A stretch of 64,000 nucleotides of DNA from Clostridioides difficile CD160 (lineage in GTDB: Bacteria > Bacillota > Clostridia > Peptostreptococcales > Peptostreptococcaceae), in contig NZ_AVHW01000053.1 of the NCBI RefSeq assembly GCF_000449425.2, positions 1 to 64,000 on the forward strand, in the 5' to 3' direction. The notes beneath the pieces are model-generated. The model was not told where the DNA came from. It worked only from the letters and a program-made list of their open reading frames with translations, and searched no databases. Made by a program: the position numbers and the translations under genes. The first letter of the stretch is position 1, and each line of letters opens with the position of its first letter. This document shows, piece after piece, positions 1,308 to 8,892 of this stretch.

Positions 1308-2521
1308 TATATTCTAAGACCTTCTAAAATATTTACTGTTTCACTTTCCATTTTATGTGTGACATGAGAATAAGTATCCATTGTTGTAGTTATTTTACTG
1401 TGACCTAGACGCTTTTGTATATCTTTAATATTAGCACCATTTTCTAAAAGTAAAGTAGCATGTGTATGTCTTAAACAATGAAAATTGAAATCAATATTTA
1501 AATCTTTATTTATTATTGCTATTGCCATGTCAATATCACCATGAGTTACAAATGAACTATCTTTTTTTCTGCATACCAAATTATATTCTGTTTTTTTATA
1601 CCATTTTCCTATTTTAACTTTCTGCTTTTTTTGATTTAGTTTTTCATCTTTTAATATTTTAGATAGAGTATCACCAATTTTAATATCTCTTATTGAAGAA
1701 TTTGTTTTAGGGGGAGCTAATTCAAAATTGGAGTCTTTTTTCCTTACTAAGTTTCTTCTAATTTTAATTATATTATTTTCTAAATCTATATCTTTCCAAA
1801 GTAAGCCTAATACTTCCCCTTTTCTCATACCTGTATAAAACCCAATCATTAAAGGAATATATGCTTTTGTCCCAACTGGAAACTTATGTAATATTGTATC
1901 AAAATCATTTAAAGTAATAGTTTTAACTTTATTACTAGTATTAGTTTTTATTAAGTTTTTAGGTATGATAACATATTGAACAGGATTCTCTCTAATAAGT
2001 TTATATGGATATACAGCTAATTTTAAAGAAGTGTTTAAAACACCATAAATCAATTTTAAAGTTCCTTTTGAGTAATTTTTTTCTTTGCCATATTCTGCAT
2101 ATTTTTCTTTTGGTTTTATATTTAAAAATTCTTGAATAACAGCAGGATTTATAGATTTCAATTTATATTTCCCAAGACTTGGTTTAATATGATTTTCTAT
2201 AGACCTTTTATAATTACCTTGGGTGTAAAACTTGCAATTTAGAAGTACATATTCCTTGTATCAGAAGTCTAAATAATCAGATAAACTAATATTAGTTTCA
2301 TCAAATACAGTACCAGAGTTTTCAAATTCATTTATTGCATCTCTTAAAGCTTTTTCAGCTTCTTTTTTAGTTTCTCCACCAACTTTTTCTACTTTTTTTC
2401 TCTTACCATCTACTATACCTGTATCAAAATAGTAATACCATTTTTTATCTCTTTTTCTAACATGTTTTATATTAACTATGTGGTATGTAAATGCAAATGC
2501 GATTGATTGTAATATAAACAC
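1307..2521 (-). pseudogene. Tyrosine integrase, broken by an in-frame TGA
   Basis: Phage/ICE-type tyrosine recombinase in one continuous frame with a single internal TGA at 2261-2263. Reading through the TGA joins DYLDF to YKEYVLLNCKF, the usual SAM-like core-binding region where homologues have a Trp, so a TGG-to-TGA change is the simplest explanation. The N-terminal part (2261-2521) has the AP2-like arm-binding segment (RKRDKKWYYYFDTG). The C-terminal part (1307-2161) carries the catalytic domain: R in TGMRKGEVLGL, HCLRHTHATLL, and the nucleophile Tyr in TTMDTYSHV. The natural start is missing: upstream of RKRDKKW the frame runs into a CRISPR repeat (2464-2492). The element is therefore probably unable to move by itself. 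Confidence 0.85.
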
Positions 2522-2557
2522 ATATTGGGTTTTATATTAACTATGTGGACTTAAAAT
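2464..2557 (+). CRISPR. One-spacer CRISPR mini-array, left copy
   Basis: A 29-nt repeat at 2464-2492 differs from the main-array repeat at two positions (CTATG for CTAAG, final T for G). It is followed by a 36-nt spacer (2493-2528) and a degenerate terminal repeat (2529-2557) whose 3' third has changed to GGACTTAAAAT. The degenerate end gives + strand orientation. There is no leader: the left side is the truncated integrase gene. The terminal repeat and the downstream hairpin closely resemble those that end the main array. Confidence 0.85.
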
Positions 2558-2570
2558 TAAAAATACTAAA

Positions 2571-4213: not shown

Positions 4214-4307
4214 GTTTTATATTAACTATGTGGTATGCGAAGAAAAAAGTTCTAGAGATAGGTAAAAATGTTGTCAAAGTTTTATATTAACGATGTGGAT
4301 TTAAATT
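4214..4307 (+). CRISPR. One-spacer CRISPR mini-array, middle copy
   Basis: The repeat at 4214-4242 starts GTTTTATATTAACTATG and ends GGTATGCGAAG. The spacer is 36 nt (4243-4278). The degenerate terminal repeat is at 4279-4307 (AACGATGTGGATTTAAATT end). Orientation is + strand. The 150 bp upstream holds no leader-like inverted repeat, so this copy is probably an orphan with no promoter of its own. Confidence 0.8.
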
Positions 4308-7112: not shown

Positions 7113-7771
7113 TAAAAATACTCCTATTAACCTATATCAAGATATACTTGATTTAATTGTGTATTACCACAAATACTATTGTATCATAGATTAATAGAAA
7201 TGTCTACTTAATTATATTTTTAAGTTAACATTTCTGCTTGTTTTTAATATTAAAAATATATTTAAGAGCTTTGTATTACTATAGATTGGTGCGAATGGAG
7301 ATAAAGTTAAAAGAGATTCTCTAGAAAACAAAATCTATATAACTTTGTATTTACAAAATTATAATAATCGTATGAACTACTGATATAAGCAGTCAACATA
7401 TGTGTACACTTATCCATTTTATCTCTAAACATATAAATTATTATCTCGCTAAAAAACTTTCATAAAAACAAAAAGAACTATATATTTTTGGTAACTGGAT
7501 GACATAATTTATAAGAATTTTATAAGTCTTAGTCCCTATAGCTTTGCGTCACTAAATTTCTATAGTTTTGCCGATTTAGTTTTATTCTACAATTTAATAA
7601 TACAATGCAATTAGTTATTATTCAACATATGTGTTTGAAAATTGAATAAGTTTATAGATATGAATAATATTTTTTATATATAAAAACAAACTAAATAAGT
7701 AGAATATATGGAAAATTTTACCTGTAGTTTTTGTGTTAAAAAGCTCCTATCATTAGTTTAAGTTAGACTGA
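7113..7771. other. Gene-free AT-rich stretch
   Basis: About 660 bp between divergent genes. It must contain the cold-shock promoter (minus strand) and the BlaI-gene promoter (plus strand). No ORF with a ribosome binding site and no convincing repeat was found. It is probably decayed element DNA. Confidence 0.5.
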
Positions 7772-8842: not shown

Positions 8843-8892
8843 TTTATAACCGAAATTCAAGTACTTGTAACTAAATAGCTAGATTTCAATGA
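8843..8892 (+). repeat. Putative attR, right direct repeat of integrated element
   Basis: It matches 1183-1232 with 47 of 50 identical bases at an offset of 7660 bp. It duplicates the 3' end of the MerR gene (codons for TEIQVLVTK and the stop), but nothing upstream of it resembles that gene. It therefore fits a right attachment site rather than a decayed gene copy. Confidence 0.7.

Follow-up and report, generated by a model that had tools for sequence, protein, structure and literature searches.

A phage integrase frame on the minus strand of the window (the whole stretch of 64,000 nucleotides analyzed here; "w" followed by a number is a position within it) runs directly into a CRISPR repeat. 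How did integrase DNA become joined to CRISPR DNA, and what does the junction mean?

The integrase-repeat junction

The elements that meet at the junction are as follows.

w1307-2461, minus strand: integrase pseudogene, with PF00589 and PF14657 on two pieces, the start lost at the junction and an in-frame stop at 2261-2263
w2461-2464: integrase/CRISPR repeat junction; homology ends at 2461 and the repeat starts at 2464
w2464-2492, plus strand: full CRISPR repeat of mini-array 1, 29 bases, Rfam family RF01327
w2493-2528, plus strand: spacer 1, 36 nt
w2529-2600, plus strand: degenerate last repeat, trailer (common to phage arrays) and terminator-like hairpin (2568-2595)

The DNA of the pseudogene is 76.9% identical to the integrase genes of phages phiC2 and phiCD418 and 69.2% identical to that of phiCDKH02, and homology to all three ends at w2461. 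Among the matches listed, 10 near-full-length genome matches to the integrase end at w2461 (eight), w2458 (one) and w2464 (one), and an eleventh, more distant match stops earlier. At the junction position, homologous integrases have their own start, ATG-AAA-GGN-GG. or similar, preceded by a purine-rich ribosome site. The frame in the window reads ...FTYHIVNIKHVRKRDKKWYYYF... and is open as far as w2521, the residues FTYHIVNI being coded by the CRISPR repeat. The first-pass annotation, which described an integrase deprived of its normal start and reading into FTYHIVNI on the reverse strand, is therefore borne out. A natural integrase start within the repeat is ruled out by the starts that the homologs possess, and no intact integrase beginning with repeat-encoded residues was found among the viral and genome integrase loci examined.

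The nucleotides AT at w2462-2463 mismatch the homologs of the MKGG type. A histidine codon would fit at this position, as found in MAGHV at 5 of 80 viral loci and in MRGHV at one genome locus; in that case the integrase and the repeat would share one base. The integrase is also broken a second time, by a single in-frame TGA at w2261-2263, which separates the pieces matching Phage_integrase (PF00589) and Arm-DNA-bind_4 (PF14657). A frameshift was ruled out as the source of this split, as both pieces share one frame with one stop between them.

Occurrence among related integrases

The junction was compared with 103 other integrase loci, 80 viral and 23 from genomes, which are not all independent and whose two sets may overlap. 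The viral set comprises 80 of the 92 relatives found and is biased toward MKGGVRK starts, this peptide being a search pattern. Within the upstream DNA covered, at most 1.5 kb (and less than that at the viral loci L156 and L157), a repeat upstream of the integrase was found at none of the 80 viral loci and at none of the 23 genome loci. Among 24 integrase matches across 61 genomes, only the window's own locus has a repeat upstream. The exact 25-base junction had no hits in viral_contigs and genome_contigs, from which records of the source genome were possibly excluded; the collections hold one genome per species, and strains of the same species are covered solely via phage, plasmid and viral records. 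The counts over viral and genome loci confirm, with the loci partly non-independent, that the junction exceeds chance. A literature search returned no report of an integrase-repeat junction recognizable by title or the start of the abstract. That the break lies within three bases of the repeat edge is no strong coincidence, because the array period is about 65 bp.

Mini-array 1

Mini-array 1 is the trailer end of a type I-B array, a leaderless remnant and not a complete array. Its RF01327 repeat family and 65-base spacing are those of C. difficile type I-B arrays. Integrase DNA stands where a leader would precede the first repeat and occupies the 140 bases before w2464, in agreement with the earlier description of a mini-array without a leader. 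A search of the genome for the missing leader returned eight matches: the query itself, five places of 76-190 bases that either coincide with an array start or lie 70 bases away from one, and two further matches of 27 and 34 bases. The proposal that the leader might lie elsewhere thus yielded no long orphan, only places adjoining arrays. As for cas genes, the genome has Cas1 and Cas7/DevR-family matches.

The phage search with spacer 1 gave nothing beyond 24-base partial matches in three Acinetobacter phages. In eight genomes of the genus the spacer matches itself alone, and its 22-base core had no hits in viral_contigs.

A probable decayed prophage at the merR gene

The junction lies in an island with the following further features.

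w409-1218, plus strand: merR-type regulator (MerR_1, MerR, GyrI-like), its 3' end being the apparent integration site; present in all eight genus genomes
w1187-1229, plus strand: left end repeat (att-like), 43 bases, 42 of them identical to 8847-8889
w2649-3449, plus strand: phage membrane gene (phrog_3793, 2.5e-60)
w3476-3504, plus strand: lone degenerate repeat, from the repeat search
w4214-4298, plus strand: mini-array 2, one spacer (4243-4278)
w4369-5223, plus strand: phage SHOCT-domain gene (PF09851, phrog_19084)
w5300-5489, plus strand: leader of array 3, like the leaders of the phiCDKH02 arrays
w5490-6036, plus strand: array 3, 9 repeats and 8 spacers
w6434-6706, plus strand: fragment of a phage LysM/endolysin-family gene (phrog_380, as the gene after the tape-measure gene in phiCDKH02)
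w6912-7112, minus strand: cold-shock protein gene (PF00313)
w7772-8167 and w8211-8612, plus strand: two BlaI/Cdu1-like regulator genes (both phrog_1077, as phiC2p45 and p46)
w8847-8889, plus strand: right end repeat (att-like), a copy of the merR 3' end with one difference

The features of w1187-8889 point to the remains of a phiC2-like prophage inserted at the merR 3' terminus: direct end repeats, a phiC2-related integrase at one end, phrog_1077 regulators at the other, a phrog_380 fragment and an empty site in a relative. The empty site is in the sister genome G005, in which w1-1256 and w8939-9900 are separated by 71 bases. The end repeats enclose the integrase, three array units and the lone degenerate repeat; when phage structural genes were sought, only the phrog_380 fragment plus accessory or regulator genes were identified. 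A c-di-GMP-I riboswitch (7487-7582, minus strand) lies within 7330-7764, a stretch whose family is multi-copy in the genus genomes.

At the same merR site, the match takes in 48-250 bases of the integrase 3' end in genomes G001, G003, G004 and G007 and just 11 bases in G006, and G002 has other DNA and is not empty. The integrase scraps show the site to have been used or kept in more than one lineage, and phages appear to have integrated at the merR 3' end repeatedly.

No leader-like DNA was seen before mini-array 2. Its spacer had no match in the phage search at E 1, and it matches tape-measure genes in G001 (31/36), G005 (31/36) and G004 (30/36), with CCT directly preceding each match. The motifs most often found in the C. 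difficile type I-B system are CCA and CCT (excerpts of PMC6079278). These matches with CCT show that one-spacer tails can hold true phage memory.

Arrays in related phages

phiCDKH02 carries two arrays, of 6 and 5 repeats, in the interval from its tail-tube gene to its tape-measure gene, each preceded by a leader resembling that of array 3. The integrase of this phage is at 206-1336 on the minus strand; the arrays, on the plus strand at about 34.9 and 37.1 kb, are followed by accessory genes, the tape-measure gene and the phrog_380 gene. The array thus reads away from the integrase in the same orientation as in the window, about 36 kb off. The order in the window (integrase, array tails, accessory genes, array, phrog_380 fragment, regulators) mirrors that of phiCDKH02. 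A 4-repeat array in the phage-plasmid NZ_CP149754 precedes a SHOCT gene and a tape-measure gene. From the last repeats or the trailer onward, phiCDKH02, phiC2, CD1801 and two plasmid records are 75-87% identical to the window. The phiC2 integrase is adjoined by two phrog_1077 regulators, and on integration across attP the integrase and the regulators would come to form opposite ends of the prophage.

Two further arrangements were observed. phiC2 retains the array trailer directly after a DUF4352 gene (L075:4092-4215), where no repeat was found; either its array was lost down to the terminator or it was never gained. On a viral contig whose integrase is phiC2-like (L087:3555-3976), a leader-bearing array of 7 repeats precedes the integrase by about 2 kb and is oriented relative to it as in the window; the trailer is different, and a gene encoding a 518-residue protein separates array and integrase.

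Origin of the junction

The junction is probably the scar of a deletion within a decayed phiC2-like prophage at the merR 3' end. The phage would have borne an outward-reading integrase at one end and an oppositely reading CRISPR array near the tape-measure gene. A deletion from about codon 4 of the integrase to a point at or just before the last full repeat would have cost the integrase its start and ribosome site, the phage its early and head genes, and the array its leader and every spacer except the last. A dead integrase and a promoterless array tail would be the outcome, and mini-array 1 would be the trailer end because the leader and the leader-proximal spacers were taken. The end repeats, the integrase damage, the array polarity, the trailer and gene order of related phages and the empty site are direct observations; we infer one single deletion, its size and the silence of the array tail. 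Given the array about 2 kb from the integrase in L087, the deletion could have been far smaller than the phiCDKH02 arrangement implies.

A CRISPR-specific mechanism is not needed for the junction, and the scar, though real, looks ordinary. The first-pass annotation had a recombination event joining integrase to CRISPR DNA at a repeat boundary. A rearrangement did remove the start codon and the leader, and to that extent this reading stands; no evidence points to the repeat or to CRISPR machinery as the cause of the break. The reading also lacked the prophage context, in which related phages carry both parts and an ordinary deletion suffices. It weighs against the deletion that neither an intermediate nor an ancestor carrying spacer 1 was found in phages, in the eight genus genomes or in viral_contigs, and that the gene at w2649 belongs to phrog_3793, whereas the gene after the phage arrays is PHROG 888; the arrangement in G001 and G004, described next, also speaks against it.

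Exchange between phages is an unlikely alternative. Recombination would have taken place between an incoming related phage and an older remnant at merR, by way of the repeats or the shared genes after the array, and would have left an array tail beside the old integrase. Different integrase scraps do occupy this site in other genus genomes, and the island holds three array units. In G001 and G004, moreover, a relative of the w2649 gene (81-82%) lies about 290 bases past the integrase scrap with no repeat in between, a lone repeat-like match following some 1.9 kb beyond; these two genomes may have lost the array, or the window may have gained it by exchange. However, the gene order of the island fits one phage, and a second origin is unnecessary.

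Much less probable is a CRISPR-guided break: the array would have held a spacer acquired from a related integrase gene, and recombination between the two would have fused the integrase to the following repeat. The 37 integrase bases that adjoin the repeat follow a TCA, among the frequent motifs (excerpts of PMC6079278), and spacers in these arrays measure 36-37 bases. Yet 5.6% of window positions and 9.5% of integrase positions are expected to have one of the listed motifs at a distance of 36 or 37 bases, the AT at w2462-2463 does not continue the MKGG-type homologs, and among the matches listed there is no separate spacer-sized match to the integrase start. Were this reading true, CRISPR memory would supply the homology that collapses a prophage onto its array, and spacers would be a source of genome deletions.

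It is hard to credit that mini-array 1 was retained as a small regulatory or anti-CRISPR RNA gene. The unit does combine a repeat and a spacer with a last repeat and a terminator, and with the terminator included its folding surpasses that of 199 out of 200 shuffles; phages are known to carry solitary repeat units (excerpts of PMC10651486). Against this, a crude scan listed no plus-strand promoter-like site from w2200 to w2464, spacer 1 has no motif-flanked site within the window, and the spacer of mini-array 2 has merely two weak, distant ones (w29201, w34588). As neither has a local matching site, a role of mini-arrays 1 and 2 as CreA-like CRISPR regulators was ruled out. An assembly error at a repeat, conceivable in a draft genome of 114 contigs with many identical repeats, is quite implausible, as a chimera would still require reads joining integrase to repeat and spacer 1 is unique in the genome.

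Self-matching mini-arrays upstream of related integrases

One-spacer arrays were observed upstream of a related integrase at 6 of the 80 viral loci (L112, L118, L120, L130, L132, L135) and at two genome loci, L207:1301-1486 (contig C75 of the source genome, G000) and L209:1672-1853. No repeat was seen at L208 and L210, two further loci of the genus that have a related integrase. At all eight array-bearing loci, 19-20 of 20 spacer positions match a site that is preceded by CCT or CCA and lies 88-92 bases upstream of the array, the match being scored on the first 24 bases with every sixth omitted. Shuffled spacers from the six viral loci reached at best 16/20 in 600 trials. These mini-arrays occur in two sequence variants, distinguished by positions 5 and 10 of the spacer, and the site varies in step with the spacer. 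The loci are closely related and thus represent few independent events. Another one-spacer array in the source genome (L211, G000:C22:16241-16334) has a best upstream match of 11/20.

By analogy, the self-matching mini-arrays resemble CreA-like or self-regulating crRNAs. The CreA spacer partly matches DNA at the toxin promoter (excerpts of PMC10097628 and PMC12737573).

Relation to known systems

The arrays of the island resemble the prophage-borne type I-B arrays of C. difficile, as described in excerpts of PMC6079278, in their repeat family, phage location and phage-directed spacers (mini-array 2). They differ in that here the phage is dead, two of the three island arrays are stripped of their leader and of most spacers. 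phiC2 and phiCDKH02 share with the window the integrase family, the integrase-side regulators (phiC2), the array trailer and the gene order, but their integrase start is intact and there is no repeat near it in the DNA examined. Virus-borne mini-CRISPR arrays (excerpts of PMC6858448) are likewise short arrays on viral DNA, and the mini-array 2 spacer matches related phages; those arrays, however, are from archaeal viruses, and the small size of the arrays in the window is best explained by decay. CreA of CreTA (excerpts of PMC10097628 and PMC12737573) is also a one-spacer array outside the main arrays. Mini-arrays 1 and 2 differ from it in having no nearby matching site, whereas the self-matching phage mini-arrays do have one, and these may matter more than the integrase-repeat junction.

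The island suggests that phage-borne CRISPR arrays can outlive their phage, with array tails, a complete leader-bearing array and accessory genes persisting in the chromosome after the loss of most phage genes. If this is general, part of the scattered arrays of the genus would be phage relics.
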